Shown here: positions 9,188-55,505 of the stretch, one piece after another
How positions within the stretch are numbered: position 1 is the first letter of the stretch
How the letters are laid out: each line of letters begins with the position of its first letter
Source: Ruminiclostridium cellulolyticum H10
GTDB lineage: Bacteria; Bacillota; Clostridia; Acetivibrionales; DSM-1351
Direction: 5' to 3'
NCBI RefSeq assembly: GCF_000022065.1
Contig: NC_011898.1
Span: 3,227,501 to 3,291,500, forward strand
Length of the DNA: 64,000 bases
Made by a program: the position numbers and the translations under genes
The notes under the pieces: generated by a model
Databases searched by the model: none
What the model was told of the DNA's origin: nothing
Seen by the model: only the letters and a program-made list of their open reading frames with translations

Positions 9188-9196
9188 TGTGATTAA

Positions 9197-37700: not shown

Positions 37701-37906
37701 GCATCAGTGCTTTTAAGCCGTCCTATCTCATCAGTAATTGCCCATTCTATAGCGTCAAAAAATGATGTTTTGCCATATCCATTAGGTGCATAGATGACTA
37801 CTAAATCAGCAATTTTTCCACTATCGTTATGTCTAAAATCAAATGGTTGTAACTTTTCATAAGCTCTAAATGCTTCGATGCTAACCTCTTTAATCTTTTT
37901 GCCCAT
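34796..37906 (-). CDS. Rad50/SMC-like ABC ATPase of a putative ABC-three-component defence system
   Basis: 1036 residues: N-terminal ABC half with Walker A APNGYGKTS (40-48), long coiled-coil arms (about 180-500 and 560-860), a zinc-hook-like CECPLCHAKYDD near the middle, and a C-terminal half with signature YLSSAQVNILSLCIFLAKVL, Walker B TIFMDDPIQHLDG and switch ISTHN. The degenerate SSAQ signature fits the ABC ATPases of ABC-3C conflict systems rather than SbcC. AGGAGGTGA lies 6 bases before the ATG, and the gene overlaps the middle-component gene by 17 bases. It is the last gene of a four-gene operon and probably senses or remodels foreign nucleic acid (inference from family). Confidence 0.82.
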   Translation of the reverse strand: MGKKIKEVSIEAFRAYEKLQPFDFRHNDSGKIADLVVIYAPNGYGKTSFFDAIEWAITDEIGRLKSTDAIKQEVKNEKGDILKNKNSEVAQGTVRFISETDDVFEIKTKKRTGNMKSDYRPGELEVISKDLQGILNEKNTFCTTNMLAHDKITSFLQNYTAEDKTKALQVFWDTNGYSGILEKISNLYDEIVKKKMALSAEVLKEKQELKQYKFETNKEHDVRHLINDFNLNCIDYMINAENLIENIDTVLEKTTEILKKVQENRNQYESNLNTVELLTNEFPNYLSKKEELEIKKSEKRECEIKLQILNQIDKLIVQNERLKSEQLEICGVVNNWGMFQNIKLELLEKNDLKKEIANSKSELQKSIIQIRENINISKANVEQSEQLKKKELEEKNLFETELRKYNDNKVNLNKYSRLNNKASYILTKRVEKRKISSDAISSIEVFIEDKCNIDQIKHYLTDEILCTNEKLVALKGEKVNQEKNIFQLEERYKNAMLLHDKINQLVLQGKELVEDTKSCECPLCHAKYDDFSILIARISAEYTSSLELDGIKKELDEGRKLNVDTIESISKESQKLKTSIQDILEKIKKEYNKQTERIHNLQLRISDWNNLITNLQNDNEIIERKYDAQNISIHDIEAINFKKAQLDMKVLDLSTNIEVEESKITTSLDLVKNIETELKNKDLKIVELEEKISELKNNNVYQSILIYLSSKNYREDNDDLQSVFKKIEEEKNNVSKKIAETEMEITDSQNKIQGTIEEVNLQYNTLLIQLQELGAGLDGYMLRCKKAFENSNVEEKDIGEQLEKLRVAFLLERNKVDESISNLNSIITDTKSLKEQKVWLNKTKEYERKNSKLDLIKSKLENLEKSKTVVENYIVEQTNEYFNSNTINQIYHKIDPHPTMNHIKFLTENSGKGLQTHIYTYDKSEEDKMSPVLYLSSAQVNILSLCIFLAKVLTEKGTTLNTIFMDDPIQHLDGINLLAFIDLLRTITTVMGRQIVISTHNEHFYSLIKVKMDDRYYLSKFIEINSVGEIRKTIKG

Positions 37907-38435
37907 TCAAGTCACCTCCTAAATAAATAGCTATTTGGGTATTTATGTCCTTATCAGTATTTTCAATCGCTCTATATAAATTAAAATCTATGCTTTTAAC
38001 TTTTTCCAATAAAGGGATTTCTTCAACTGGACTTTTTGCATCTATATATAAATATAATAAACGATCCTTTATATAATCTTTATCTCCAAGCTCTTTTTCA
38101 TTCAAAGAATCCCAAACCATTTTTCTAGTTGAATACTTATCTTGCTCAATTTTTTGCTTTAGTTCTTCTGAAATTCTCTTTTTGCATTCGAACACCAAAT
38201 ATATGTTCCATTTTTCAATAGTTTTTTTTAAATTAATTTGAAATTCTGTTGCTATAGCTGCCGTAATTGTTTCATAATATTTTTCTAAGTCATTTTCACC
38301 TTCAACAATAACTTGAAAAATATAAATATTATAACCTGGCTCTTTATCAATCCAACAGGTAACCTTATTTATCCACTCAGTATTATCTTCACAGTTCAGA
38401 GCTAATACTCCTTGTTTGTACTCCTCAAAACTCAT
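37890..38435 (-). CDS. Putative ABC-3C middle component
   Basis: 181 residues with no motif I recognise; mixed alpha/beta with conserved-looking aromatic and acidic positions (YNIYIFQVIVEGENDLEKYY, DRLLYLYIDAKSPVEEIPLL). In ABC-three-component loci a small protein of this size lies between the effector protein and the ABC ATPase and links the two. It overlaps both neighbours (11 and 17 bases), as expected for subunits made together. Assignment is by context. Confidence 0.55.
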   Translation of the reverse strand: MSFEEYKQGVLALNCEDNTEWINKVTCWIDKEPGYNIYIFQVIVEGENDLEKYYETITAAIATEFQINLKKTIEKWNIYLVFECKKRISEELKQKIEQDKYSTRKMVWDSLNEKELGDKDYIKDRLLYLYIDAKSPVEEIPLLEKVKSIDFNLYRAIENTDKDINTQIAIYLGGDLNGQKD

Positions 38436-39741
38436 GCAACATCTCTCCTATTCGTTTACCCAATCGTCTTTCTAGTTCTATACTATCCATGCCTTCATCA
38501 ACATTTGCTTCTATTACAATCTCTAATTCATCAATTAATTTTCTAATATGCATCAGCGATATTCTTTTGACATTACTTTTGACATCATCAATACGAATTT
38601 CCCGTTCTACACAAATCACATTGCTAATATCAGTTACAATCTTATCAATTTGAGATGATGGTAATATCTTGGTTGCAGGTTGTTTATTGGTTTTAATAAT
38701 CAAAAAATCACCTTCATGTATATCTCTATATGCATTTTGTAGATAGTCCTTTAAGAAATCTGAAAGTTTTGTTTTATTAGTAACATAAATTAATTTTACT
38801 TTCCTAACCCCATTCTCATCATTAACAATGTAATAGTTTTCGCTTTTTAAGTTTTCTTGATCTTCCATGCATCTAAAAATTAAATATAGAAGCCAACCTT
38901 CCCAAATTTCCTTACATTGAAGGTTTGCATTTGAATATGGCCATACAAGTTTCTTCCCACAACGTTTCAAAATATCATTAGGCGTAACATTATCTCTTAT
39001 AATAGGTATTTGCACTGAACAAATTCTATTCATAGGTTCTTCGAATATTTCAATAACACCCTCTTTAAAAAGATTAAAACTACAGCCTTCTATATCACAT
39101 AGTAGTTCCCAGCTTTTTTCTGCTAGTTTTTGTTGAATGCAATCCCGTGAAACCCCACTTATAGCATCAAATGCACCCTCAGGTGAACTCAAGTCTGTAA
39201 TAATCCCGCATAAAAATATTTCATTTTCTACTATTTTGAAAATTCCACTGCCAGAAAAACTGGACATTATTTCCTTTGCATTCTGCGAAAATGTACTCAT
39301 TGACCGTTCACTATTAATTTCTATAATACCCTCCCCTGGCAAACTTATTATTTTCGCATCAAGTGGGTATCTTTTTATTCTACTTTGCGGATTTTCCATC
39401 GCTCTTGGAAATCCTGTAATAGACACTATGTCTCCTACAGATACTGCAATAGTCCGGTACAATGGAATATCACTTAAATAATCTAATTTTATAACAACTA
39501 AATCATTTTGACTAATAACCAGTATATCTTGTAGCGTTGCTGTTAGCAGTTGTAGGCTTCCATTAACTTGTCTATATATCGTAAGTGATCCTAAATCTAC
39601 TGTTTCTTCTTGATTCACGCAATGCCAGGCAGTAACCAAATATGAGTAATTCTTATTTTCTGTTTGTAATAATACACCAGAACCACAATTACCTTTATAT
39701 ACCGTTTTGACTACTACTTGATCATAAAATTTATCTATCAT
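38425..39741 (-). CDS. Trypsin-like serine protease effector with C-terminal linker domain
   Basis: 438 residues. The N-terminal half is a chymotrypsin-fold protease: GSGVLLQ, catalytic H40 in YLVTAWHCV, D80 in SQNDLVVIKLD, S163 in SSFSGSGIF. No signal peptide, so it acts in the cytoplasm. Residues about 230-438 are a separate domain (WEGWLLYLIFRCMEDQENL, IRKLIDELEIVIEANVDEG) plausibly the ABC-3C-specific C-terminal domain. Overlaps the metallo-hydrolase gene by 4 bases (ATGA). Likely an effector or processing enzyme unleashed on infection; target unknown. Confidence 0.72.
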   Translation of the reverse strand: MIDKFYDQVVVKTVYKGNCGSGVLLQTENKNYSYLVTAWHCVNQEETVDLGSLTIYRQVNGSLQLLTATLQDILVISQNDLVVIKLDYLSDIPLYRTIAVSVGDIVSITGFPRAMENPQSRIKRYPLDAKIISLPGEGIIEINSERSMSTFSQNAKEIMSSFSGSGIFKIVENEIFLCGIITDLSSPEGAFDAISGVSRDCIQQKLAEKSWELLCDIEGCSFNLFKEGVIEIFEEPMNRICSVQIPIIRDNVTPNDILKRCGKKLVWPYSNANLQCKEIWEGWLLYLIFRCMEDQENLKSENYYIVNDENGVRKVKLIYVTNKTKLSDFLKDYLQNAYRDIHEGDFLIIKTNKQPATKILPSSQIDKIVTDISNVICVEREIRIDDVKSNVKRISLMHIRKLIDELEIVIEANVDEGMDSIELERRLGKRIGEMLHEF

Positions 39742-40793
39742 CTATGTAAATCCTCCAGATTGAGTCCTTTCTCATCTATCGTTATAAATTTCATACCATA
39801 TTTATCTAGTTCTTTTTTTGTAAATATTTGGTTAAAGTCTATTTCGTAATTGCAATAAAAATTAATTGGTTGCTCTGAATTACATATAATTCTACTTAAA
39901 CATTCTTTGCTTGGTCTTCCTGAAGCAGTAAGATTAGTACTTATTATATAATTCTTGCATTTCAACATTTTCACTAATCCATTACTTGTATTATGTTTAC
40001 TAGCATGATGTGATGTTTTGCAAATATCAACTTCCAATGGTTTTGTTTCAGAATATCCCAATTCTGATAATGACTTCTCAATTTCAATTGCTGATGCATC
40101 ACCTAAAAACAAAGCTTTTTTTTGCTGATATTCAAAAATAAAAGCTAAGCTACTCTTATTAGCCAATGATATATTTTCATGGAATTCCAAATTGTTCAAT
40201 TCTTCAATCGGAATATCATAGTCCGAAGCTGCTGAGATTTTGGTCTCTCGCTCTTCCTCTATCATCCAATGTTCATTAAACTCTCGTAATATTTCTAAAC
40301 TCGGCGAAAGTATTGTTATGTGAGCCTCTTCAATATCAAACTCATCAAATCTTTTTATGACTTTTTCGTATTGAAATCCTGCTTGTTTCAAAACTTTTTC
40401 AAGACTCGTTCCTTGTTTCCAACTTATTTTAGTTGTCTCATCTTGAATAAAAATATCATTTTTTTCTTTATCTCTAATTACTCCTAACTCTTTATTTAAA
40501 AAATCGCCATAATTAAACCACATCTTATTTATCGTAGAAAAATCAAAATCTTTTTCAGAAAAGATTTTTAAAACACCATCTATATGATCCGAATCAATAT
40601 GTGTCAAAACTAACAGGCTAAGATTTGTATTATTTTTTTTGAGACTATCTGTAAATGCCTTCAAACTCCTATAGCATTCTTTACCAATTCCACCATCAAT
40701 TAATATGTAGTTATTTTGTTCTAATCCATAAGTTAGAATTATACAATCTCCGTAAAGCGCCTTCAATGCTCTAATATTTATTGGCATGAACAT
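39738..40793 (-). CDS. Metallo-beta-lactamase-fold hydrolase (ComEC-like), first gene of the operon
   Basis: 351 residues. The zinc-binding motif LTHIDSDHIDG (HxDxDH, about 83-93), GDAS at about 230 and KTSHHAS at about 258 give the MBL fold of the ComEC/Rec2 type, seen in nucleases and nucleotide hydrolases. Start at ATG 40793 after GAGGAATA; MPIN two codons later is an alternative. As I recall, MBL plus trypsin pairs also occur in type I AVAST loci with a STAND ATPase; here the ATPase is Rad50-like. Substrate unknown. Confidence 0.78.
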   Translation of the reverse strand: MFMPINIRALKALYGDCIILTYGLEQNNYILIDGGIGKECYRSLKAFTDSLKKNNTNLSLLVLTHIDSDHIDGVLKIFSEKDFDFSTINKMWFNYGDFLNKELGVIRDKEKNDIFIQDETTKISWKQGTSLEKVLKQAGFQYEKVIKRFDEFDIEEAHITILSPSLEILREFNEHWMIEEERETKISAASDYDIPIEELNNLEFHENISLANKSSLAFIFEYQQKKALFLGDASAIEIEKSLSELGYSETKPLEVDICKTSHHASKHNTSNGLVKMLKCKNYIISTNLTASGRPSKECLSRIICNSEQPINFYCNYEIDFNQIFTKKELDKYGMKFITIDEKGLNLEDLHR

Positions 40794-40994
40794 TATTCCT
40801 CATTTCTTCTTTAAAGCAAATTCATTCTGAAATATCAATACTATATGAGTCAATAACTTTCTATTTTGTCTTTGTATTTTTTCACCTCAATGATGTCTTT
40901 TCAATCGGAACAAGTGTATCAGCTATTTTCCATCCTTATCTCCCTGATACTTTCCATGAAGTTAATACTGAAAAAGTACAATTAACGTTATATT

Positions 40995-41477
40995 CTATCT
41001 TGCAATAAATTCTTCGACATTTAATACCTGTTCTCCTTTAATTTGCCACATATTTGCCTGAATTGATTTCTTTTTAATTTTATTATAAAGCCATCCATCA
41101 TCTTCAAGAGATAAGTTAAATATTCATTCCCAACTTTCAGTCATTGTCTTATAAAATTTAGGGTCTTTTGTTGGATGAAGCAAAAGCTCTCGGCGGATCG
41201 ATTGTTCAGAACTTAAAGATAGGCACTCATTTTCTACCTTCCTATCGTCATCTTCGTTTAAAGGTGCATACCAGTAGTTTAAAGGATAATGATACAGATC
41301 AAAGTCTGAAAGCAGCATATCTTTTTCATTTACCTCTATGGTAAGTCTTACTATATTTTCCCCGTACAATGCATGTCCACTTCTTCTCATATCTGGCTTG
41401 CTTCTCTTTCCCTCCCACTAAAACCATGCCCAGACAGGATATTTAATGTACTCTTTATCCAGTCTATCAACGAATCG
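40995..41477 (-). pseudogene. DUF3841-like protein with two in-frame stops
   Basis: One frame reads LDKEYIKYPVWAWF, TAG (41418-41420), WEGKRSKPDMRRSGHALYGE, LSDFDLYHYPLNYWYAPLNE, TMTESWE, TGA (41124-41126), IFNLSLEDDGWLYNKIKKKS and IQANMWQIKGEQVLNVEEFI to a TAG at 40995. WAW...RPDxRxxG, LLSDFDLxHYxLN and IQAxxWxI are what I know of DUF3841. The N-terminal region is also missing. Both stops are one transition away from glutamine or arginine codons. Function of the family is unknown. Confidence 0.6.
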
Positions 41478-41957
41478 TCAAGGTATCTGTAGCTCGAGAA
41501 AGAAGGCTTTTCAATTTCATTATCTTTAATCTCCTATGCTAATACTGCCAAGTCCTCTTTATAATTTTCTATACCACTCCATTTTACATTTGAGCTGTCG
41601 CAAAACTCAGCAACGGCACTTTCATAGTCTTTCCCACAATAAAATAAATCATAATATTTCAAATCAGATATGTACTTTCTTAATGTTCGATCTATACTGC
41701 TTTTATATTCTTTAAAATACCGGAGTATAAAATCTTTGCTTTTCGGATATGAGTTACAAATTTCCTGATCTATTTTCAAGAGAGTTTGCTCAACTTTGAT
41801 ATTTCATAGTCATAAGTTCAGGATTAAGGTAGTTGTTAAAATAATCCATGACATACTTTATTACCGTCGTCATGTTTTCAGCATGATTCTGAAAATCGAA
41901 TTCAGCCAACTTGTCCTTTTTCTTCATTTGTGAAATATACTGCTCAACAGTAAGCAT
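41387..41957 (-). pseudogene. Small hypothetical protein, frameshifted, paired with DUF3841
   Basis: GGGGAGGTGGGAAT precedes the ATG at 41957. The first frame reads MLTVEQYISQMKKKDKLAEF to YLNPE and stops near 41790; a shifted frame continues KVEQTLLKIDQEICNSYPKS to YKEDLAVLA, TAG (41534-41536), then EIKDNEIEKPSFSSYRYLDD. A one-base change and a CAG-to-TAG change would reunite about 185 codons. No family recognised; its overlap with the DUF3841 frame suggests they were a pair. Probably dead. Confidence 0.5.
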
Positions 41958-41998
41958 ATTCCCACCTCCCCAGACTATAAAGCAATACTTATTACATT

Positions 41999-42044
41999 GA
42001 TTGTCTTCTTCATTTAATGTTAGCATTAAATGAAAAAGACAATC
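41999..42044. repeat. Long hairpin, 21-bp stem with 4-base loop
   Basis: 41999-42019 is complementary to 42024-42044 with a single G-T pair; the loop is TTAG. It lies between the pPIWI-RE stop and the small pseudogene. No T-tract follows on either strand, so it may be a processing or stability element, or a weak terminator of the pPIWI-RE operon. Confidence 0.75.
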
Positions 42045-42111
42045 ATACTCTCTCCAACTGCTAGTAACCTTTTATTGTACGATAAAAGCTTAACACTTTA
42101 TCCCATTGTAT

Positions 42112-44835
42112 TTATCTAATATTGTTAGCCTTTGCTACCTCTTTTGCTTTTTCTTTGATTAAATGCTGCTTTAAAAAATAGTCATCATAATAAGCAACCA
42201 AATATTCTTCAGCCTTCTTAGCCATATGTACAGGTATGGGTAAATTTAAAGCGGTAGAAAACTGAATCGGTGAAGATGCAGAACGTAATTTATCCGTCAA
42301 ATCAACATAAGGAGGTACATCATCCTCATTGCAGTTGTATACTGCAATTTCAATAGCTGCCTGCCTGTTATTTGTTTCATTTGGCTTGTCTTCTTTTATA
42401 ACCAAGTTGTTCTTATGTGCATCACTTTTGCTTTGAACGCTGTAATACACCCTGTTATTCAACCTGAAAACACCTTTCTTTAAAGTATGTAAAGACAAAG
42501 AATAGTCATCCTCTAAATTAACCCAGGCTGGAACCTCATCAGCTTCAGTTAAAATTCTGATATTTACAACATCATCAAATATAGAGTCACTATTTTTCTC
42601 AATGCCTATATTAAGCTTTCCAGAACCTATCCTCGTATTCGATAAGTCCTTTAAATGTGTCCTAACATTTTGAGCGTTTGAAAAAAGAATTAATTGTCTT
42701 TCTGGATTACTTTCTTTAACACTCCTGATGGCATTTACAATAAACTGTTGTTTCAACTTCTCGCAATAATCACCATTTAGCTCATCGAATATTGAAGCCA
42801 TATTTGCAATCTTGACCAGGCCATCCTTATAAGGAAGCCACTTGACTTCAAAATTATCTCCCATCCTTCGATGGTCTTTATATACGCTTTCTGAAAAAAC
42901 TGCAATTTTAATAATATTATCTTCAATAATTGTTAATATTGGGATTAATATTTTATATGGTATTTCTTCGCAGCTACTACTGAAGTCAAATGAATGTTTG
43001 AGCTTTGACATATACCAAAGGCCTATCAAAATAGGTTCTTGATCCATTTGAGGCACTGACTTTCCCAATATCCCCAATTGTCTGAAAAGATCCTTAATAC
43101 CATTGATGTATTTGTGCATATTTGCCTTGTATTCTTTCAACTCGTTCTCAGATTTCTCTTGGCGATTTATGTACTCTCCCTCTTCCAATGATATAAACTG
43201 CGTTAAGGTATTCTTAACAGCAAAGACATTCCTTATAGTACTTTTGGGATCTATCCATTCATCATGATCAAAGTATTCTTCATCTTCAAGTTCAAATAAG
43301 GATGCCCGTATATCGGAACCCTCTGTAACATATGTGTCTAAATAGTTTAGAAAAGAAGTATAGCAATCAATAGACTCAGAGATAATAAACTCACCGTTGC
43401 TGTTTTGCATCTTCACTGGGTTTAGAATTATTTTTTTAGTAACTTCTTTCTTGTCTTCTTTATGAGTTACAAACAAGGTACTACTGGATTTATCAAAATG
43501 TGCTGCCTTTGCCTTAAATATTCCGTATTTATCATGTTTGAAGATCTTTAAATCAAACAATTCAACTAATGCATCCTTTAAATATTCAAGCCACGCATCG
43601 TTCCTGTAGAAAGCTGTAATCACTAATTCAGCCGGTATTTGTTCAAATCTGAATTCAGCCTTTTGGGTCTTTGCCTTAGTGTCAATTTCCTTTGCTATAT
43701 TATCGAGAGTTATAAATTCTGGCACCTCAATATTTGTATTATTTAGGTGGTTTCTGATAGCTTTTAAAATTCCTTCACTGATATACTCTCTATCTTTTTC
43801 TGTTGTCCCTGTCCTGATTTTATGACCTTTGCCCTTGATGTGTGAACCGTAAATAATTCCTGCCCCCAAATCATCATTAGACATAAATTTATTAGGTTCA
43901 GCCACAATAGTATCCTGCCAATCAAATATCTTTTCAATCAAATTGTCGTTTATACCATCAGCTATGTTGTATTTCCATTTCCATTTTGCCTGATCCATTT
44001 TTAGACCCAATTCATATATTTCAAATCCTTTACCAATATTTTTGTATATAAGGGCTTTTAATCTTTTATTACTTGCATAAGGCTTCTTGTACGCAAATCT
44101 GGCAGTTCTCAATTTAATAATCAAATACGGAATACTCTCACCTGGTATAGATACCACCCTTAAATCAACTGCATGTGTCCAATAAAATTCTTTTCCATCT
44201 CTATCAACATATTTTCTAAATGGAACTGCTGCTAGTTCAGCAGACTTGTCCTCATTTTGCACCTTATAAAAGCGATAGCTTACTGCTCCTTTTTTTGATG
44301 AAGGTACCTGGATATCCATTTCACCACTGATTTTATATGCAAGGTAGGCCGGAAGTAGTTTATACATAAGTTCGTTTTCATGTTTTTGTAGGTTATGTGG
44401 ATTACCGGACATCTCTATATTCTCCTGGGATATTGTTATGCCCTCTATATCGTCCTTGATATATTCATAAAAATCAGCATCCGTATTTTCTCGACACCAT
44501 TTTTTAAATTTTAGTTTGAATAGTTCAATATCTATCCGTTCATATAAATATAACCATTCCCCTGAGCACGTATAAAAGTCGTCTCTTGCATATAAAACAG
44601 GATCCGACAACAAGGCCACTGTAAGCGTAAACCACTTGGGCTTGAAGGCTCTATAGTCCTTATAGTATTTTCTACTTTTATCAAGATATTGTTTTTCCAT
44701 TAAACTTTTAATTTTACTATTCAGTGTTTCTGGTGATTTGATAACAAAAATTCCTTCAATGCGAATAACATCATTTTCTGGCTTTATCGGAGACATATAG
44801 AATTTATTTACTTTAACACTATCCGTTCTAGACAT
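42112..44835 (-). CDS. pPIWI-RE family protein
   Basis: 907 residues. The C-terminal PIWI-like module carries the family's arginine and glutamate in NIRILTEADEVPAW (R760, E764/E767), then YYSVQSKSDAHK, an EIAVYNCNEDDVP block and the closing LPIPVHMAKKAEEYLVAYY, which I recognise from pPIWI-RE proteins. The N-terminal 500 residues include DLRVVSIPGESIPYLIIKLR and MSNDDLGAGIIYG, matching the long N-terminal region of the family. pPIWI-RE proteins are Argonaute relatives predicted to bind nucleic-acid guides in anti-invader systems with a DinG helicase and a restriction endonuclease, both upstream here. It overlaps the helicase gene by 8 bases. Confidence 0.82.
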   Translation of the reverse strand: MSRTDSVKVNKFYMSPIKPENDVIRIEGIFVIKSPETLNSKIKSLMEKQYLDKSRKYYKDYRAFKPKWFTLTVALLSDPVLYARDDFYTCSGEWLYLYERIDIELFKLKFKKWCRENTDADFYEYIKDDIEGITISQENIEMSGNPHNLQKHENELMYKLLPAYLAYKISGEMDIQVPSSKKGAVSYRFYKVQNEDKSAELAAVPFRKYVDRDGKEFYWTHAVDLRVVSIPGESIPYLIIKLRTARFAYKKPYASNKRLKALIYKNIGKGFEIYELGLKMDQAKWKWKYNIADGINDNLIEKIFDWQDTIVAEPNKFMSNDDLGAGIIYGSHIKGKGHKIRTGTTEKDREYISEGILKAIRNHLNNTNIEVPEFITLDNIAKEIDTKAKTQKAEFRFEQIPAELVITAFYRNDAWLEYLKDALVELFDLKIFKHDKYGIFKAKAAHFDKSSSTLFVTHKEDKKEVTKKIILNPVKMQNSNGEFIISESIDCYTSFLNYLDTYVTEGSDIRASLFELEDEEYFDHDEWIDPKSTIRNVFAVKNTLTQFISLEEGEYINRQEKSENELKEYKANMHKYINGIKDLFRQLGILGKSVPQMDQEPILIGLWYMSKLKHSFDFSSSCEEIPYKILIPILTIIEDNIIKIAVFSESVYKDHRRMGDNFEVKWLPYKDGLVKIANMASIFDELNGDYCEKLKQQFIVNAIRSVKESNPERQLILFSNAQNVRTHLKDLSNTRIGSGKLNIGIEKNSDSIFDDVVNIRILTEADEVPAWVNLEDDYSLSLHTLKKGVFRLNNRVYYSVQSKSDAHKNNLVIKEDKPNETNNRQAAIEIAVYNCNEDDVPPYVDLTDKLRSASSPIQFSTALNLPIPVHMAKKAEEYLVAYYDDYFLKQHLIKEKAKEVAKANNIR

Positions 44836-47800
44836 TGATTACATCCCCCTCAACAAGCTTTAGTTCACTCAATCCATCAAGTAGAATACTGTACAGTTCT
44901 TTATTGATCTCTTTGTCTGCAATAGAGCTCTCGCTCTGAATCATCTTTTTTAAGAGTTCCCGCCATCCAATCAACATACTTGTCTCCGGACTATCTGATT
45001 TCTTGCCACAACTAAATGTATTTGGAGCGAAGCTTCCATCCAAAAAAATTATTTTTGCATTTACATCTCCTCTGATTAGCCGGCAGCATAACTGATACAC
45101 GTCGACCAGCGTATCTCCTAATAATCGATTCCTTTGCCAAGAATCCAAGGAAGTATATCCAAACATATTTTCATAACTTCTCTGAGTCGCATTTAATCTT
45201 TTTATAAGCTGACGAATAAATCCTTCAAAAGTATTTTTCCGACTGCCTTTAAACTGTTTTATTTCTGATACATAGACGCTATTTAACCATGAAAGCAGTG
45301 TGTTCGCGTCATCCGGCATATAATAAGGCCTTGCGATAAAGAATACTGCACCCATTGCAGCAACTGTTTTTTTTCCTTGAACTGCCAAGGATTCATCTAT
45401 CATTTCCAACGATTCTGTAATAATATTGTATCCTCTACCAATTCCAAGAGGAATAGACAGATGTTTTATATTAAGCTTTGCAACATCTTCTATGTTGCTC
45501 CTCTCCAATACATTCTTATCGTTCGCATCGGCACTACCTGGACGTACAAGACTGCGGGCACTGTATCCAAAACTGTTTAATGCCTTTGAAAACTCTTTGC
45601 AGTTTTCATAGGAGCCCAGAGTAAACAATATGCGTTTCCTTCCGGGCTCCAGCGTCTCAATAATAGAATCCAAGAAACTTGTCCCATTTGGGTTTATTTC
45701 CTTTGCTGATATATTATATGCTGCTTTTTGTAATGCATCTATCCTATTTTCTCGATAAGTTCCAGATACTTTAACTGCAATATGAGCCGGAAAACTCATC
45801 TCTAGTCTGGGTCTGTTTGCATCTTTTTTCCTTAACAAACAACTTACGGGAATATCCACATGATATTTTGGAGAGTACTCCAAATTACTTGTGCCCGAAA
45901 GCAAAATACAATTTATTCCTACACCATCCAAATCTCTGTATAGTTTATCAAAGTTTAGTAGTATCCACCGGCCAACGCCCTCGTAATAGTAATAATCGAT
46001 AGCAAAGGAATTGTTATCCTCTTTAATTCTAAAGCCGTAATTTACATCAACAGGCAATGCCGGAACTATGCCTGCAAATTCTTCCTTTAATATCCCTGGC
46101 AATTTATTGTCTTGACCTATAAAATCTGTGTCAATGTTTTTTACTGCTGTCCAACTTTGCAAAAGGCATTTCAGTTTATATTCAAGCATATATATTTGTA
46201 GAATAAATCTGACTTTTTCCTCTGCTCTGTGAACAACATCTGAAAGAGGCCTGTCTAGATTAGATTTCAACTTTTCGAGCTTATCGTATTTTTCTATATC
46301 ACTGCGTTTGTGTTTAAAAAAGTTTTTTAAAGGTAATTTTGTAAAACGCTGAATATCCGTTCTAAGTTTTGCCTCATCCACAATATTGGAAGTAATAGCT
46401 CTTGCCAGATAATTCATCTGACTCTTACTGCTATATTCCATGAGTCCCTTGATATGTTCACTCTGAAATTCCCAGTAACTTTCTCTAAATGATTCTCTTG
46501 CTTTTGTTACCTGTTGCTTTAAAGGATCTCCCGAAGGTAAATCTTTAAGGTCTTTGGTACTAACCCCAATAGCTTCGAAAAATAGTTCTTCCCACATCAT
46601 ACTCGATTTTATCACTTTGCCGAATATATCTTTTGAAAAAAGCTTACCGGGCCGGTCTGTGTTTTTAAAGAACTCAATAATACCTGTAATATAATTTTCG
46701 AGACTGATGGTATCTTTTATGAAATCTATTAATAGTGGACTATCTGGCAAAGTACCCTTCTTGAAATAATCCATTTGCCTCTCCATTATTTTTTCATAGA
46801 ACAGGTCTTCACTTCCATAAAGGTGTATTGTAGTCGAAAATAATGTATCAAGATTGGCTTGCACCCTGTCTGATTCGTCAATAAACGCCAAATCGCATGT
46901 CCGTATTAGGTATTCAAGAATAGTTATCTTTTTGTCACAGAATGGTGCAGGTAAATAAGATTGAACCGCGCTGTTAATTGTAGTAATTACTATCTGTGCA
47001 TCATTTAAATCCTTGACATTATTATATCTGGGACAAGAATATATAAAAGGGCAGTACACTTTCTTTTCACCACTCATTAGTGAAGTACACGGTTTTTCAC
47101 GATCTTGCATCACACCTTCGATAGTCATATTGCTGTTTACCAGCAAACAACTATCCGAAAGATATCTAAAAGAAGGCTTCTTATCAAATAGCTCATGCCT
47201 ACTTTTTAATGTAGTCAGATATTGGTTTGAATGGTCTTTTATCTGATTCGGGCTGAGTAGAGGAACAGCACGAATTCCAATGTCATTAAAATAATCTACC
47301 GTCTGCAATACTTCAGTTATTGTATTAATAAACAGAGTTACCCTTTTTCCCTTTTTAGCCAATAAGTAAGAGCATATTTTAATAAACGTTGACTTACCTA
47401 CAGATAATGCCCCAACCATATGCTTAATTCCATCCACAGTCAATTCATCGCTGTCTTTAATTGTTAAATTTTGTTGTGGTATAGTGAAAACCAAATCCCT
47501 AACTCTTTTTTCCCAATTATAGGATTTCCCTTTCTTTTTATCTTGCTCATCCATGTCTTTAGCAGCTCTATCCAATTCATCTTTTCGGATGACAATTTTC
47601 TCACATTTCTTTGGAGTAACATCAATATTTATGCTTCTTTCTTTACTTTTTACATATTCAATATATTGAACTTTCAAGTATATCTTTTTAATGCTCTTGT
47701 CCAAATAGTCCAAATATGAGTACTCTATGTGTTCCTTTTCAGCGATTTCTGGTAAATCCTTTTCCCGTGTTTCCTTATTACGTTTATAACCCAGTGGCTG

Positions 47801-47875
47801 TTCCAGCGCACTTAGAAGATCTTTATATCTTTTATTATTTTTGCAACTTCCTTTTAAAGCAAACTCACTAATTTC
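44828..47875 (-). CDS. DinG/XPD-like Fe-S helicase of the pPIWI-RE island (frame continues an upstream ORF by -1 shift)
   Basis: From a TTG at 47713 it would be 961 residues, but coding continues upstream to 47875 and there is no ribosome binding site at the TTG. Numbered from the TTG: Walker A GALSVGKST (101-109), four cysteines C189, C209, C221, C227 placed like the XPD/DinG iron-sulphur cluster, DEAH-like LAFIDESD (275-282), and motif V-VI-like IPLGIGRGYN and CCRLIRGDVNAKIIFLDGSF near the C terminus. It should unwind DNA or R-loops for the PIWI-RE protein. Together with the 47854-48234 frame it would form a 1135-residue protein if ribosomes slip at 47875-47881. Confidence 0.75.
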   Translation of the reverse strand, partial: EISEFALKGSCKNNKRYKDLLSALEQPLGYKRNKETREKDLPEIAEKEHIEYSYLDYLDKSIKKIYLKVQYIEYVKSKERSINIDVTPKKCEKIVIRKDELDRAAKDMDEQDKKKGKSYNWEKRVRDLVFTIPQQNLTIKDSDELTVDGIKHMVGALSVGKSTFIKICSYLLAKKGKRVTLFINTITEVLQTVDYFNDIGIRAVPLLSPNQIKDHSNQYLTTLKSRHELFDKKPSFRYLSDSCLLVNSNMTIEGVMQDREKPCTSLMSGEKKVYCPFIYSCPRYNNVKDLNDAQIVITTINSAVQSYLPAPFCDKKITILEYLIRTCDLAFIDESDRVQANLDTLFSTTIHLYGSEDLFYEKIMERQMDYFKKGTLPDSPLLIDFIKDTISLENYITGIIEFFKNTDRPGKLFSKDIFGKVIKSSMMWEELFFEAIGVSTKDLKDLPSGDPLKQQVTKARESFRESYWEFQSEHIKGLMEYSSKSQMNYLARAITSNIVDEAKLRTDIQRFTKLPLKNFFKHKRSDIEKYDKLEKLKSNLDRPLSDVVHRAEEKVRFILQIYMLEYKLKCLLQSWTAVKNIDTDFIGQDNKLPGILKEEFAGIVPALPVDVNYGFRIKEDNNSFAIDYYYYEGVGRWILLNFDKLYRDLDGVGINCILLSGTSNLEYSPKYHVDIPVSCLLRKKDANRPRLEMSFPAHIAVKVSGTYRENRIDALQKAAYNISAKEINPNGTSFLDSIIETLEPGRKRILFTLGSYENCKEFSKALNSFGYSARSLVRPGSADANDKNVLERSNIEDVAKLNIKHLSIPLGIGRGYNIITESLEMIDESLAVQGKKTVAAMGAVFFIARPYYMPDDANTLLSWLNSVYVSEIKQFKGSRKNTFEGFIRQLIKRLNATQRSYENMFGYTSLDSWQRNRLLGDTLVDVYQLCCRLIRGDVNAKIIFLDGSFAPNTFSCGKKSDSPETSMLIGWRELLKKMIQSESSIADKEINKELYSILLDGLSELKLVEGDVINV

Positions 47876-48234
47876 TTTTTTTCTGTAAAGCTAATACTTC
47901 CAATACGATAGCCCAGTGGCATGCTGCTATATTCCATGTAGGCTTTCTCTACCACGGTTTTATAAGTCCAGTGAGGTAAAAGGTTCTGCAGCTTTGACAG
48001 TTTGGCCTTATCCAGGTTGTTGAAGTTGGGCAAATCCGATGTACTAACCAGTCGAAATATCTCAATAACTTTTTGAATCGCTATTGAACTTAGTCTATAC
48101 GAATCCAATAAAAAAATTGCTACCATTTCAACAGTACATATTAATTCTGCCTCTTCTTTATTACAACGGATTTCCTTTACGATATTTTTGATTAAGTCTT
48201 TATACTGCTGATTATACTCCAGCCTCACTGTCAT
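47854..48234 (-). CDS. 126-codon frame, probable N-terminal domain of the helicase
   Basis: Mostly helical sequence (LICTVEMVAIFLLDSYRLSS, NLDKAKLSKLQNLLPHWTYK). It begins inside the end of the endonuclease gene (23-base overlap) and ends with TEKKKLVSLL. At TEKK the mRNA reads A AAA AAG; slipping back one base continues into EISEFALKGSCKNNKRYKDL and the helicase frame. The helicase lacks its own start signals, so this is most simply its N-terminal part. It may correspond to one of the accessory domains known from three-gene pPIWI-RE islands; not proven. Confidence 0.6.
   Translation of the reverse strand: MTVRLEYNQQYKDLIKNIVKEIRCNKEEAELICTVEMVAIFLLDSYRLSSIAIQKVIEIFRLVSTSDLPNFNNLDKAKLSKLQNLLPHWTYKTVVEKAYMEYSSMPLGYRIGSISFTEKKKLVSLL
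47875..47881 (-). promoter_or_regulatory. Canonical -1 ribosomal frameshift heptamer A AAA AAG
   Basis: In the zero frame the codons are GAA AAA AAG, the strongest bacterial slippery heptamer (as in dnaX and many IS elements). A -1 shift links the 126-codon frame to the 1015-codon helicase frame. The alternative is a one-base deletion in a former eight-A run. Confidence 0.55.
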
Positions 48235-49405
48235 CAGCCCTTTCTTTCACTAATTCAATGAATTCCTTAACTCTTATAATTTGGTATAGTTTTGCATCAA
48301 TCCAGTTATTTCTCAATACATTTATATACGGATTTTGGACTTCATCCGGCAGTACTAAAAAAGCTTTATTATAAGAAATTCCTTTATCTTTTGCAAATCC
48401 ACGAATGTTCAGATGGCTAGCCAGTTTAAAAGGTATATCCCAATCTTTCACATCCGCAATCCAGATCTCACCGTCCGAAAATTCTATTTTTATATCTGTT
48501 TCATCAGCATTTGGATACAGCTCAACAGTAAATGACTTATCTCTGATTAATTCAGTAAGCTTATCCCGTAGAAGGATCTCACTCCTTCCGGGTATAACAA
48601 CAGAATGCATAATTTCTGCTCTTGGCCGGTAATATTTCATTTGCCCATTAATATGAATACATTTAACCTCTGACTTCCCTTTCCGTTCAAAGCATTTTTT
48701 TGAGATACAGTAAAATTCTTCGTACTCTTTTCCCATTGTATTACACTTGATTTTCTTACTTAATGTGTATCCGCAGTATGGACAAATATATATTCTCTTA
48801 TCATATATTACATCTGGCGGGATTTCTTCATATATCTTTTTCAACAAGTGAGAAGGCTGCTCCGCGTTCAAAAATAATTTAAAGATAAGCTTATCACGAG
48901 ATGAAGCCTTTTCCTCAAGCTTTTCTTCCTCTACTAAATACTCCTTTTCGTCTAACAGAGGTTTCTCGACAGCCAGCTCTCTAAGAGTCGTATAATATGA
49001 ATCTGCAATTTCATTACTACGGACGTGTATTTGTAATTCCCTATAGAACTGAGCTCCTTCACCAGGATTATAGTCCCCTGCCAAACTTCTGGCCACATCC
49101 GTTAAATGCCACTCCCCTGAATTGTTCCATATCAGGCCTTCCAGGATACCATCAAATTTATCGAAATGTGCAATGCCCCAATCGCATATTGGTTTTGTAA
49201 TTATATCTATTTGCTCGTTGATAGTTAAAGGAAATATGACCTCAGATTTCGTTTCTATAGTGATCGCCTGAAGAAGTAGTGATGCTTTTTTCCAATTATC
49301 AAGCAATTTTTTATTTGAATCGGACTCAAATATTTCTGTCAGACTATATGCATAAAAATTAAGTCGTTTAATGCCTTCTTCGATAACATCTTTTTCGTAT
49401 TTCAA
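48212..49405 (-). CDS. Restriction endonuclease-like protein of the pPIWI-RE island
   Basis: 397 residues starting at TTG after AGTGGGGGACG. Middle: a zinc ribbon (ICPYCGYTL...CISKKC, about 208-240). C terminus: a PD-(D/E)xK nuclease core, NADETDIKIEF followed by EIWIADVKDWDIPFK, where D and the DVK dyad would bind metal. This is the layout I associate with the REase that accompanies pPIWI-RE and DinG. It should cut foreign DNA located by the other two. Next gene overlaps by 23 bases. Confidence 0.75.
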   Translation of the reverse strand: MKYEKDVIEEGIKRLNFYAYSLTEIFESDSNKKLLDNWKKASLLLQAITIETKSEVIFPLTINEQIDIITKPICDWGIAHFDKFDGILEGLIWNNSGEWHLTDVARSLAGDYNPGEGAQFYRELQIHVRSNEIADSYYTTLRELAVEKPLLDEKEYLVEEEKLEEKASSRDKLIFKLFLNAEQPSHLLKKIYEEIPPDVIYDKRIYICPYCGYTLSKKIKCNTMGKEYEEFYCISKKCFERKGKSEVKCIHINGQMKYYRPRAEIMHSVVIPGRSEILLRDKLTELIRDKSFTVELYPNADETDIKIEFSDGEIWIADVKDWDIPFKLASHLNIRGFAKDKGISYNKAFLVLPDEVQNPYINVLRNNWIDAKLYQIIRVKEFIELVKERADDSEAGV

Positions 49406-49428
49406 TCCATTCGTCCCCCACTATTGCA

Positions 49429-50415
49429 TTAATACTTTGCACAGATAGCCTTGTATAAGCACAATCTGCAGACATTTTCATCTTCTGCCTTTTTAAAATG
49501 ACCTATATCAAGAGGAATATTATCCTCTACCGATTTATTTTTTGCTTTTAATTTATCAACTTTAATCTGGAAATCCTCTTTAAACTTCTCAATATCATTA
49601 TCATTTAAAAAATATGTAAATCTTTTGTTTTCTAGCAGATATTCATTAACGTAAAAAATTCCGTTTACTTTTGAGTAATCTCCTCTATACTTAGATTCCG
49701 CCAAGTATATGGCATACAATAGTAGCTGTTCTTTGTCTTTTACAGTATCTTTCTCACCTGTTTTCCAGTCAACGAGTATCAAGTTATTGGATTGAGGAAT
49801 CTCATATAAAAAATCTACTTTTGCATAAACAATGTCCCCTTGATACCGGAAATTTGGAAACTTATTTTCTCCAACTGTTTTATCACTTAGGAGTATTTTA
49901 ACACCTACCTCCAAAATATCTTGATATGACAAGCTTTTAGGTAAATTGTTTGCAATACGTTTCAGTTTTTCTATTACTTTTTCATACTTTTTTGTTACAG
50001 TATCTCTATCTTCTTTAAAATAGATTTCCTTTAAATAGAGCTTATCCGCAGATGTCCTTGCTCCATTCAAAACAGTATATGTATTGTGTTTAGCTATTGT
50101 CAGTCTTTCATTATAGTCATTATATAAGTATTCATAAATATTGTCCGGCACACAATATGGAGTAGGGTTCGGAAGAGAAGCAATTTCAGCAATTGCATCA
50201 TGTATAACTGTTCCAAGGATTGTGTCCATTGTATTTAATCTTTTTAGGCATAGTACTTCATTCCTATCTTCTTTTTTAACACATAACCCCTCAGACCATG
50301 TTCCGTATGTCTGTAAAGCATATTTAAATTCACATTCTTCAAACAACCTAAATTTGGTGAAAGATACAGAAAACTCAATTTTGTTGTTATTATTATGCTT
50401 CCAGTATTCTGCCAA
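49429..50415 (-). CDS. Cas4/RecB-like PD-(D/E)XK nuclease with Fe-S cysteines
   Basis: 328 residues from the TTG at 50415, chosen because GAGGAGG lies 6 bases upstream; the longer frame to 50538 has no good site and an atypical N terminus. Motifs: RLFEECEFKYALQTYG, GTVIHDAIAEI, AKVDFLYEIP, LILVDWKTGE and EQLLLYAIYLAES (RecB/Cas4 catalytic motifs), with C-terminal CRLCLYKAIC completing a four-cysteine iron-sulphur site as in Cas4 and AddB. First gene of the pPIWI-RE operon; a Cas4-like member suggests end processing or guide generation (inference). Confidence 0.8.
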   Translation of the reverse strand: MAEYWKHNNNNKIEFSVSFTKFRLFEECEFKYALQTYGTWSEGLCVKKEDRNEVLCLKRLNTMDTILGTVIHDAIAEIASLPNPTPYCVPDNIYEYLYNDYNERLTIAKHNTYTVLNGARTSADKLYLKEIYFKEDRDTVTKKYEKVIEKLKRIANNLPKSLSYQDILEVGVKILLSDKTVGENKFPNFRYQGDIVYAKVDFLYEIPQSNNLILVDWKTGEKDTVKDKEQLLLYAIYLAESKYRGDYSKVNGIFYVNEYLLENKRFTYFLNDNDIEKFKEDFQIKVDKLKAKNKSVEDNIPLDIGHFKKAEDENVCRLCLYKAICAKY

Positions 50416-50538
50416 TTGCAACCTCCTCATAAAAAACGTTCTGAATGTAATTGTACATCCATAACTTTTAGCCTTGCATAAACCATCTTCACTATTAGTA
50501 GGTAAATTAATAGTTTTTTGGGAAATTAAATAAATCAT

Positions 50539-50872
50539 TCCTATAATTGTATTCCTTTAGGAGATATATTTCAACAAAAAATGTTACAAAATCTATAGTT
50601 TAAGTACTTAACAAATCACAAATTAAAGAAACCACTTTTGAAATGGAAAAAAATTTTTTAACCCTACAAAAATTTAGCTTTTGCCATATAACTATTAAAA
50701 CAAAATGCAATTAGCTTATAAATGGAACGCATATACAAGTGACATCAGACCTTTTTATATAAAAGTTGTTGCTTGAAATAAAAATTCGACAAAGATTTTA
50801 ATGTCTATGTCAAATTTCTTTATACGCATATTTTGTTAGTTCGAAAGAAGCCTTAATTTTTAAATTATTACG
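50539..50872. other. AT-rich upstream region of the pPIWI-RE operon
   Basis: No gene or RNA seen. It must contain the promoter of the minus-strand pPIWI-RE operon; I could not single out a convincing -35/-10 pair. Confidence 0.35.
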
Positions 50873-51598
50873 CTACTTTTTCGGCTTCTTTTTATTTAAA
50901 CTTTTTATTTTATTAATATATATTTTCTGCATATCATAATTTAAATTAAAATATAGGTAGTCACCTTTTGATTTAAACCCTAAATTATTAAAGAATCTAT
51001 TTAATTTCTTTTCTATAAACACTGGCTGACAATCCACAATTTCATGTTCCTTTTCGGGATTATACCGTGGAATTGGCTCTAGAACAAAATATCCTGCTTG
51101 CCGATTAAATTGGGTTTTAAGATAATCAGAAAGCAAAATTATTGCGCAACTGCCAAACTTATTATTGCGATACTCAGGTTCAATATATATATTATCTATT
51201 GAAAATATATTAAAACACAAGGAAGGCATTTCGCCTGGCTCATATGACAATTCATTTTGCAACTCGGTAACCAATTCATAAATATCAAAAGTATACTGGT
51301 CTATGTCATCAAATGCATTATCAGCAACATCAGTTAGTGTATTATCTTCTAAAGCTTGTTCAATATTGTAAAACTTTCCATTTAAATAACCTACAGTTTT
51401 ATGTTCAGCATAATCACTAGTACTTGCAATAATGTCAAATGATATTCCTACTAAATATTTTTCAAATTCTGAAACACTCAAATCAAATGTTGTTTTTCCT
51501 TTTAAAATATCTTTAATATTAATAGGAATTGGTTCACTAAACCCTGCACCATATGGCTCTAGCTTCCCCACTAAGCTTAAATGTGTTAGTTTTTTCAT
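50873..51598 (-). CDS. GNAT-like acetyltransferase-fold protein
   Basis: 241 residues. The segment IDNIYIEPEYRNNKFGSCAI (about 150-169) followed by ILLSDYLKTQF resembles the acetyl-CoA-binding motif of GNAT enzymes (R/Q-x-x-G-x-G/A, here weak), with a preceding beta strand and a C-terminal FFNNLGFKSKGDYLYFNL as in many N-acetyltransferases. GAAGGGA precedes the ATG by 7 bases. Substrate unknown. It stands alone between the pPIWI-RE and type I RM operons. Confidence 0.55.
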   Translation of the reverse strand: MKKLTHLSLVGKLEPYGAGFSEPIPINIKDILKGKTTFDLSVSEFEKYLVGISFDIIASTSDYAEHKTVGYLNGKFYNIEQALEDNTLTDVADNAFDDIDQYTFDIYELVTELQNELSYEPGEMPSLCFNIFSIDNIYIEPEYRNNKFGSCAIILLSDYLKTQFNRQAGYFVLEPIPRYNPEKEHEIVDCQPVFIEKKLNRFFNNLGFKSKGDYLYFNLNYDMQKIYINKIKSLNKKKPKK

Positions 51599-52003
51599 AG
51601 TTAATCCCTTCCGACCATTAATTTACCTTTTATTACAAATATTGTATCATACTGCATAAATTTTGATAAAAATCTTTTTGTAAAAAGGCAAAAAATAGAA
51701 TCTGCTACATGTAATAGAAAATCAGCCAGCCATTTTTTTAGTGGGCGCTGCTTCAAGTTATCTTTACTTATTGCTCATTCAAATAAGATAGATGGATTGC
51801 TTTTTACTTTTGGACGACCTACATCTTGTTTAAAAATAATATCAATATATAATTTTGAAAATTTAATTTACCAAAATACCTCAATCTGTTCAATTAATTC
51901 TTTATTTATCTCTTTTCTTTTTTAATTCCAACCCAATAGGTAGGTATTGCTTACTAGGAACAAAGACGGCAGCAAAATTAAGAACAGGTTTATATTTCAC
52001 TCA
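51599..52003. other. Spacer upstream of the silent hsdS
   Basis: No supported gene. A minus-strand stretch reads KQDVGRPKVKSNPSILFE and may be a relic. There is no promoter and hsdS 5' end here, supporting that the adjacent hsdS is silent. Confidence 0.4.
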
Positions 52004-52639
52004 CGCTTGGGAACAGCGAACGTTGGGGGAGATGGCTGAAGAAACTTACGGAGGTGGGACACCATCAACATTAAATAAAGCTTATTGGAATGGTAACATA
52101 CCATGGATACAGTCATCAGATTTAGTTGAACACCAATTGTTTGGAGTTTCTCCAAGAAAATATATTACTGAAAGTGGAGTATGTAGTTCAGCCGCAAAAT
52201 TAGTACCTGAAAATTCAATTGCAATAGTAACGCGCGTTGGTGTTGGGAAGCTTGCTACTATGCCGTTTGCATTTGCGACAAGTCAAGATTTTTTGTCGCT
52301 AAGCAATCTGAAATGCGAAATTTGGTTTTTTGCTTATTCTATATATAAAAAGTTACAAAGAGATATCGATGCGGTTCAAGGCACTTCAATAAAAGGGATT
52401 ACGAAGAACGAACTTCTCTCAAAGAGCATATGTGCTCCATCAGATATTCTGGAACAAACCTCCATTGGTAATTTCCTCCATTTACTGGACGATGCTATCA
52501 CCCTACATAAGCGTAAGCTGGATGATCTGAAGGATTTGAAGCACGGCTACTTGCAACAGATGTTTCCGCAGGCAGGCGAGAGCGTGCCGCTAGTTAGGTT
52601 TGCAGGGTTTACTGAACCATGGCAGAAGCGGACATTGGG
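52004..52639 (+). repeat. Left arm of a 636-bp inverted repeat in hsdS
   Basis: Matches the reverse complement of 54762-55397 without a difference that I could find. It covers the first target-recognition domain and central conserved region of both hsdS genes. Confidence 0.9.
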
Positions 52640-53180
52640 TGATGTTGCAGAAATTGTTGGCGGTGGAACACCGGATACCGCTAATCCTGCTTATTGGAAC
52701 GGTAATATTGAATGGTTTTCGCCTACTGAGATAGGAACTGAAACTTATGCTTCTATTAGTCATAAGAAAATTAGTGAACTTGGATTGAAAAACAGCTCTG
52801 CTAAGATGTTGACAGGCGGAAGCACCATTTTATTCACTTCACGTGCCGGAATAGGAGATATGGCAATCCTTACAAGACCCGCTGCAACAAACCAAGGGTT
52901 CCAGTCATTAGAGATAAGAAAAACATTTGACGTCTATTTTATTTACTCAATGGGTAGTAAGATAAAAGAGTATGCTCTTAAAAATGCTTCCGGATCAACG
53001 TTTTTGGAGATTTCCGGGAAAAACCTGGGGAGGATGAAATTACGCATTCCAACTTTCAAGGAACAAACTGCAATCGGCAATTTCTTCCGAAATCTCGATG
53101 ACCAAATAACCGCTCAAAAACAAAAGCTAAGCCAATTAAAACAATTGAAATTTGCATATCTGCAAAAGATGTTGATATAG
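52023..53180 (+). pseudogene. hsdS: Silent hsdS (type I RM specificity subunit), 5'-truncated donor copy
   Basis: 385 codons: target-recognition domain 1 and spacer identical to the active hsdS, then a different second domain (IVGGGTPDTANPAYWNGNIE, KNASGSTFLEISGKNLGRMK). The first ~30 residues of a normal HsdS and any translation signal are missing, so it should not be expressed where it lies. It serves as the alternative second domain for inversion between the 636-bp repeats. Confidence 0.85.
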
Positions 53181-53196
53181 TGTGTAGCAAAGTTTG

Positions 53197-53260
53197 AAGC
53201 CTCCTTTATAATAGAGATATTAACTTTATCATCTCTACTATTTTATATTTCAGGAGGCTT
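53197..53260 (+). promoter_or_regulatory. Hairpin covering the recombinase ribosome binding site
   Basis: AAGCCTCCT (53197-53205) pairs with AGGAGGCTT (53252-53260), and inside TAGAGAT (53212-53218) pairs with ATCTCTA (53231-53237). The right arm contains the whole AGGAGG site of the recombinase (ATG at 53264), so read-through transcripts from hsdS would be poorly translated. It may also act as a terminator. Confidence 0.7.
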
Positions 53261-53263
53261 TTT

Positions 53264-54205
53264 ATGATTGCAAGCAAATCCCAATATTTTTATGAATATT
53301 TTTCCGAATGGATAAAAATATACAAATATGGCGCGGTCCGCCCTGTTACATATCAAAAATACTTAATGACATTGCGAAGGCTTACCGAACTTTCTCCCAA
53401 TTTGAAAATTTGTGAGCTGGATAAACGAAGCTACCAAACCTTACTCAATGATTATGCTGAAACTCATGAGAGGCAGACAACAATGGATTTTCATCATCAC
53501 TTAAAAAGCGCAATTTTAGATGCTATTGATGAAGGTTTGTTGTCAATAGACCCCACCCGAAAGGTTGTTATAAAAGGCAAGACAGCCACGAAGAGAAAAA
53601 ACAAGTACCTAAGCCAATTTGAACTGCAATCTCTGCTGAAGAATTTATCATTGACAGATAGTCCAAATTGGGATTGGCTTATTCTTCTTATATCAAAAAC
53701 AGGACTTCGTTTTTCGGAGGCACTTGCGTTAACTCCAAATGATTTTGATTTTTCCACACACAAAATAAGCATAACAAAAACATGGAATTATAAAGGCGCT
53801 GAGGGTGGGTTTATGGAAACGAAAAATACTTCCTCTAAGCGTGTCATTCCAATAGATGCACCATTGGCTGTAAACTTTGAAACCTTAACCAAGGATTTGG
53901 CGGCTAATGAACTGATTTTTGTGCAGGGAAGAGTTTTTAACTCAACTGTCAATAGTCGGCTGAAGTATTTATGCAAAACAGCAGGGGTCCCTGTGATTTC
54001 AATACATAGTCTTCGTCATACCCATGCATCACTTTTGATTTTTGCAGGCGTTTCTATCGCCAGCATTGCCAAACGGTTGGGGCATTCCAGTGTCACCACC
54101 ACGCAAGAAACCTATCTCCATATCATTCGAGAGTTGGAGAATCAAGACAACGATAAAATCATGAATCATTTATCTGCTTTGGATGTTAATATAAGGGCAC
54201 TGTGA
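53264..54205 (+). CDS. Tyrosine recombinase between the two hsdS genes
   Basis: 313 residues: N-terminal SAM-like core-binding domain (about 5-90) and a phage-integrase catalytic domain with R in KTGLRFSEAL, the HxxR box SLRHTHASLL, GHSSVTTTQ and the tyrosine in ETYLHIIREL. Recombinases in this position invert hsdS segments in phase-variable type I systems of Firmicutes. It lies inside the invertible segment. AGGAGG is 6 bases before the ATG but sequestered in a hairpin. Confidence 0.9.
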   Translation: MIASKSQYFYEYFSEWIKIYKYGAVRPVTYQKYLMTLRRLTELSPNLKICELDKRSYQTLLNDYAETHERQTTMDFHHHLKSAILDAIDEGLLSIDPTRKVVIKGKTATKRKNKYLSQFELQSLLKNLSLTDSPNWDWLILLISKTGLRFSEALALTPNDFDFSTHKISITKTWNYKGAEGGFMETKNTSSKRVIPIDAPLAVNFETLTKDLAANELIFVQGRVFNSTVNSRLKYLCKTAGVPVISIHSLRHTHASLLIFAGVSIASIAKRLGHSSVTTTQETYLHIIRELENQDNDKIMNHLSALDVNIRAL

Positions 54206-54211
54206 GTGCCT

Positions 54212-55441: not shown

Positions 55442-55505
55442 CCTCTGTTCCTCCTTTAATCCTTGCGTTCTTTTTTCAAAGTTAGAATTTGTTTTATAAG
55501 CCCTC

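Follow-up and report, generated by a model that had tools for sequence, protein, structure and literature searches.

The closest described counterparts of the locus analyzed here are the pPIWI-RE three-gene system of Burroughs, Iyer and Aravind (2013), for which DinG and an R-loop model provide the mechanistic frame (PMC3702460), and PsPIWI-RE of Pseudomonas stutzeri, in which RNA-guided DNA cleavage requires D525 and D610 (PMC10991935). According to the accessible text of these reports, to which all statements drawn from the literature below are likewise limited, catalytic residues are retained only in a subset of pPIWI-RE proteins (PMC3702460), and guides were proposed to be RNA (PMC3702460) and tested in synthetic form (PMC10991935). 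Here we analyze a minus-strand gene cluster at positions 42112-50415 of a 64,000-nucleotide stretch (the window) of Ruminiclostridium cellulolyticum H10, whose genome is a single contig of 4,068,724 bases (NC_011898.1; window at 3,227,501-3,291,500). Our preferred reading, to which we assign a probability of about 0.7, is that this cluster is a module of the known restriction endonuclease (REase)-DinG-pPIWI type residing in a defence island, with its helicase gene split in the sequence as determined, and that a solitary RecB-family nuclease gene has accreted in front of it, probably co-transcribed with the module but not a standard component.

The nuclease, REase, helicase, and pPIWI-RE genes all lie on the minus strand where an earlier note on this DNA had placed them, their domain matches are far beyond chance, and the identification of the last three as a pPIWI-RE module made in that note proved correct. 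The order is that of the three-gene system, with the REase (48212-49405, 397 amino acids) first of the triad, followed by DinG (helicase body, 44828-47713) and the pPIWI-RE protein (42112-44835, 907 amino acids). The spacings are operon-like, with a gap of 23 nucleotides between the nuclease and REase genes and further overlaps of 23 and 8 nucleotides. The REase is recognized by both Pfam and PADLOC (pPIWI_RE_REase, 99.7 bits, cut-off 26.1) and consists of an N-terminal region, a zinc ribbon (C208, C211, C233, C238), and a PD-(D/E)XK core (TDIKIEF, ADVKDW). The 907-residue protein, for which the earlier note had proposed a hidden Markov model search, exceeds the cut-offs of all three Pfam models covering its X, MID, and RNase H (PIWI) domains (pPIWI_RE_X, 94 bits; MID_pPIWI_RE, 91 bits; RNaseH_pPIWI_RE, 88 bits) and matches PADLOC PprPIWI with 416 bits. 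In NCBIfam, all of the main proteins stayed below the cut-offs; no RNA family reached its gathering score within 40700-52100, and no array-like repeat family was found within 41000-52100. The locus is a real REase-DinG-pPIWI module of the known type, and a divergent one, its pPIWI protein being 21 and 23% identical to its two relatives of the same class.

The PIWI domain of this protein probably binds a guide but does not cut, since it appears from the alignment to be devoid of the catalytic aspartates. Catalytic sites were mapped by their spacing from D525 and D610 of PsPIWI-RE, a protein that itself lies outside our alignment of 11 pPIWI-RE proteins, and the assignments are to be read accordingly. 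In that alignment, the position of N720 is occupied by aspartate in six of the 10 relatives and by glutamate in two. The strand expected to hold the first catalytic aspartate contains W607, which corresponds to aspartate in none of the 10 relatives, so the first site is not fixed. R760 is aligned with arginine in nine of the 10 relatives (in a separate alignment, A1, it falls out of line) and E829 with glutamate in eight, and the two are the probable R and E signature residues, insofar as these are the residues the original authors meant. If the PIWI protein is non-cutting, cutting would fall to the REase. Beyond the module families, the pPIWI protein gave one chance-level match among solved structures (E 0.6) and none among plasmids at 1e-5, and its family alignment found no relatives in viral contigs.

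The helicase gene occupies two frames, which makes the completeness attributed to the module in the earlier note doubtful. The main frame encodes 961 amino acids from its first listed start (TTG, 47713) and contains the Walker A motif GALSVGKST, the DESDRVQ box, the QLCCRLIRG motif, and four cysteines (189, 209, 221, 227). It matches PADLOC PprDinG with 322 bits, but only from model position 144; among nine comparison helicases of another order, eight match from positions 11-25 and the ninth (L062) from 192. Upstream of the start codon, the frame stays open for 59 codons to 47890 (47714-47890), overlapping a 126-amino-acid open reading frame (ORF) at 47854-48234; only 30 of 5000 base shuffles of a 177-nucleotide stretch (47684-47860) were stop-free. 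The two frames are one base apart and meet near a run of seven A (47876-47882). Against our own profile, built from 12 relatives, the motor frame covers positions 190-1085 and the 126-residue frame positions 14-116. The match of the latter is weak (7.7 bits); it was reached by none of 2000 shuffles (1410 scored, best 7.4) and ranked second among 121 scored ORFs of the window, behind the helicase, with an unrelated ORF close at 6.4 bits. The 126-residue frame is probably the N-terminal Z region of the helicase, and the open frame is in itself firmer evidence of a split than this profile match. A single DinG gene uniting Z region, cysteines, and motifs was not found in the window, the N-terminal part lying in the other frame. 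The helicase is one ORF of 1002-1188 amino acids in 32 of 33 relatives (21 by annotated genes or stop-free ORFs and 11, L058-L068, by ORF listings; the partial locus L069 is left out of the count). Compared with solved structures, the helicase gave seven short matches, six of them to reverse gyrase, and compared with phages, none; a scan of genome contigs with the helicase alignment returned at least one locus.

The gene preceding the REase (49429-50415) encodes a RecB-type PD-(D/E)XK nuclease of 328 amino acids, counted from the likely start, a TTG at 50415 that follows AGGAGG and coincides with the end coordinate of the earlier note; the longest frame begins at 50538, and the resulting 369-residue ORF matches Pfam PDDEXK_1 with 55.9 bits (cut-off 22). 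Its motifs GTVIHD, KVDFLY, VDWKTG, and QLLLY supply the H, D, D-x-K, and Q-x3-Y elements, and four cysteines (C28, C316, C319, C325; C...C-x2-C-x5-C) are common to five relatives in a full-length alignment. The designation "Cas4-like" given to it earlier thus stands at the superfamily level, the PD-(D/E)XK core and the four cysteines of iron-sulfur (Fe-S) type both being conserved with these relatives, but not at the family level, where PDDEXK_1 applies instead: the protein scores 11.9 bits against Pfam Cas_Cas4 (cut-off 22.7) and 19.4 and 12.9 bits against the PADLOC Cas4 models, and we rejected Cas4 membership. The best match in the defence library is PADLOC Aga_Cas4-like_Nuc (63 bits), which, to judge from its name, belongs to an Argonaute-associated set. 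By its motifs, the protein is a putative Fe-S exonuclease. A single-sequence AlphaFold2 model had a mean predicted local distance difference test score of 32.6 and was not used. Searches with the nuclease yielded one chance-level match among solved structures (E 0.2), no relatives in viral contigs, and no match among plasmids at 1e-5, with three weak matches at E up to 10.

Among the loci examined, the association of this nuclease with the module is confined to a single genome, and the nuclease is probably not a standard component. Members of its family (profile A4) are found beside the pPIWI-RE module in none of the 34 other loci fetched, among which the available upstream stretch is short in L064 (approximately 1500 nucleotides), L066 (approximately 580), and L069 (approximately 1470, measured to where the profile match begins), and several of the plasmid loci are closely alike (18 of 25 matching plasmid records were fetched). 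No member occurs among the ORFs of 19 loci (L008-L020, L038-L043) in which REase, helicase, and pPIWI are all present according to our own profiles, built partly from these loci, nor in three genomes with three-gene modules (G160, G027, G518). In 12 further genomes, none stands next to the module, and two of them (G861, G956) carry one on another contig. L004, L005, L007, L008, the 18 plasmid loci, and 11 loci of another order (L058-L068) have REase, helicase, and pPIWI genes arranged as in the window but no leading nuclease. Conversely, nuclease relatives occur where the island does not: at E 1e-5 the class yielded one of 291 genomes, the one under study, and at 1e-3 the phylum sample yielded 10 of 348 including it, five of the others with values of at most 1.1e-14. 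PprPIWI gave no match in the nine other nuclease-bearing genomes, although a silent search is not proof of absence, even with a model that found matches elsewhere. Six neighborhoods of these relatives were fetched, and the five that were read contain, by eye, ordinary-looking chromosomal genes; five relatives are 24-26% identical to the window protein. Occurrence of the nuclease apart from the island in relatives, which the earlier note had named as grounds for refuting its proposal, is what these searches show.

The position ahead of the REase was also surveyed elsewhere, in 14 loci from the same phylum whose fetched sequence includes the REase gene (L004, L005, L007, L058-L068). Pfam identified the REase in L058 and L066, comparison did so in L004, and in the others it was assigned by position and size. 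Upstream genes were identified in seven of them, in each case on the same strand: McrC with an AAA protein in L058, an McrC protein with an ORF that looks AAA-like by eye in L007, an AAA protein with a DUF2357-PDDEXK_7 protein in L060 and L065, a related AAA protein with an ORF unnamed by PADLOC in L061, BREX genes in L059, and a PLD-helicase protein in L063. This suggests that the slot gathers assorted defence genes, a variety that fits accretion of the nuclease, and by analogy with the McrBC-like or BREX genes found in front elsewhere, accretion is the best reading of its position. In the literature examined, the pairing of McrBC-like genes with a downstream pPIWI-RE REase (L058, L060, L061, L065, L007) is unreported, and these recurrent pairs deserve study.

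Several points weigh against our reading. With regard to the helicase, no curated Z model matches the 126-residue frame (Pfam searched to E 1, PADLOC to E 0.1), although PADLOC pPIWI_RE_Z matches all nine scanned helicases of another order (L059 and L068 were left out of the scan); the one-base offset may stem from an error in the sequence or be circumvented by frameshifting; and the sole exception among the 33 relatives, L043 (Cupriavidus plasmid pMTS1), likewise has its helicase in overlapping frames (6371-8008 and 7701-9857). With regard to the nuclease, its gene shares a strand with the REase gene, which is 23 nucleotides away, and no terminator-like site was called in the interval, a closeness that suggests a functional link. 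Long prokaryotic Argonautes (pAgos) occasionally cluster with genes for Cas4-like nucleases (PMC10653904, PMC10573157), which offers a parallel for such a partnership. Moreover, the comparison loci are distant, as the identities of their pPIWI proteins indicate, and a closer nuclease-bearing clade could have been missed.

The alternative that survives best is an intact module, with the offset arising from a mistake in the deposited sequence, which we regard as a real though lesser possibility. The offset sits in the seven-A run, all other motifs looked for are present, and homopolymer runs of seven A are a usual place for sequence errors. A real mutation at such a run is also common, however, and the split is known from one assembly of the strain. 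Either a lesion or a sequence error seems to us a better reading of the split than programmed frameshifting, and if it is a lesion, the module of this strain might be compromised, with the loss of function that this would entail.

We consider it unlikely that the nuclease is a true fourth component serving the pPIWI-RE complex, whether by making or trimming its guides or by degrading its targets. Such a role would accord with its first position in the cluster, the short gap free of called terminators, and its best library match to Aga_Cas4-like_Nuc; in Synechococcus elongatus, moreover, loss of either the ago or the cas4-like gene favors RSF1010 plasmids (PMC10653904), in line with the clustering of long pAgos with Cas4-like genes, and a PIWI protein lacking catalytic residues would leave cutting to partners. 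Opposed to these points are the absence of the nuclease from all 34 other fetched loci, the occurrence of its family elsewhere without pPIWI-RE, and its low identity to the five relatives lacking pPIWI-RE. A fourth working component is thus possible, but the case rests on one genome, and a literature search that did not cover preprints and most subscription journals turned up no account of pPIWI-RE accompanied by a Cas4- or RecB-like gene.

Less probable again is a functional split of the helicase, either as two chains or as a fusion produced by ribosomal frameshifting. An A AAA AAG heptamer, a classic bacterial slippery site, lies in frame in the 126-residue ORF directly ahead of the shift, and L043 shows a comparable arrangement of two overlapping frames. 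The helicase is nevertheless a single ORF in all other relatives counted, including L017 and L042, further Cupriavidus plasmid loci of similar layout. Programmed frameshifting was rejected as a candidate, no stable, stimulatory structure following the heptamer (z = +0.55). A7G sites number 12 across both strands of the window, loss of a base within the A run could itself create the heptamer, and the AAGGAA approximately 18 nucleotides ahead of the TTG at 47713 is, by eye, too distant to make a good ribosome site. The least probable scheme, conceived by analogy with pAgo and Cas4-like pairs, is a four-part machine in which two PD-(D/E)XK nucleases would assist a slicing-dead PIWI protein: the REase would cleave the target, and the RecB-type Fe-S enzyme would cut breaks into short DNA guides.

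Returning to a known-type module with an accreted nuclease, we infer guide use, hybrid recognition, a division of labor, and co-transcription as follows. The PIWI protein, apparently without slicing residues, would bind a short guide and recognize invading DNA at a DNA-RNA hybrid, DinG would open the duplex, and the REase would cut, while the leading nuclease would either degrade the ends that REase cleavage leaves or work on its own. The source of pPIWI-RE guides is an open question in the accessible parts of PMC3702460 and PMC10991935, and a dedicated guide-making nuclease, if true, would make it testable. The significance of this locus is modest as long as no further instances of the pairing appear and the nuclease is not shown to make guides, and the comparison warns against inferring function from a single neighborhood.

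The module lies between a Lamassu set on one side and a type I restriction-modification system on the other. The former comprises SMC-like LmuB (34796-37906), LmuC (37890-38435), a protease-type LmuA (trypsin-like CTD4 protein, 38425-39741), and a metallo-beta-lactamase-fold protein (MBL, 39738-40793). The latter comprises HsdM (55506-57083), HsdR (57080-60325), and two HsdS frames (within 51996-55534) that share a perfect inverted repeat of 652 nucleotides, whose copies (51996-52647 and 54754-55405) flank a tyrosine recombinase gene (53264-54205); this type I specificity locus is invertible and probably phase-variable. A 241-residue protein with weak acetyltransferase matches is encoded upstream of the nuclease (50873-51598, minus strand), and a protein with a TOTE conflict-system primase domain (AEP-TOTE, 251 bits) at 18249-19607. 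A large serine recombinase with Resolvase, Recombinase, and zinc-ribbon domains, encoded at 62080-63687, may be what mobilized the island.

Few genomes in the taxa that include the window's genome yield PprPIWI matches, which fits horizontal acquisition: counting the genome under study, they occur in one of 58 genomes of the order (itself), three of 391 in the class sample, and two of 398 in the phylum sample. Elsewhere, they were found in one of three genomes in the class of G518, in none of 15 in the class of G731, and in 12 of the 198 examined from the order to which G754 belongs, tentatively Paenibacillales, which offers more modules for study. Irregular loci were also encountered: in L017, REase and helicase are separated by a transposase gene, and in L018, small genes lie between helicase and pPIWI. 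On the plasmids of L014 (Bradyrhizobium) and L016 (Microvirga), the gene following DinG is annotated as RNaseH domain-containing and spans approximately 9.3 and 10.2 kb, respectively, a length that suggests a fused pPIWI-RE form.

Compared with known systems, the window locus shares features with each of four groups. Solitary PD-(D/E)XK nucleases of the same phylum (L032-L036) align with the leading nuclease over the full length and share its catalytic and cysteine motifs at 24-26% identity, but they lie among unrelated-looking chromosomal genes in genomes without a PprPIWI match. The pairs of pAgo and Cas4-like nuclease (Aga_Cas4-like_Nuc; SeAgo, PMC10653904) likewise link a RecB/Cas4-type nuclease to an Argonaute-like protein, whereas the partner in the window is pPIWI-RE instead of a pAgo and the instance is single. 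PsPIWI-RE of P. stutzeri (PMC10991935) belongs to the same family and has neighboring DinG and nuclease genes; it requires D525 and D610, while the window protein appears to lack aspartate at these sites as placed by spacing. The pPIWI-RE three-gene system (PMC3702460; PADLOC PprRE/PprDinG/PprPIWI) differs in that the window helicase lies in two frames, a RecB-type nuclease is added in front, and the pPIWI protein is divergent, but the two share the order REase, DinG, pPIWI-RE, the zinc ribbon before the REase core, the helicase cysteine cluster, and the X-MID-RNase H layout.

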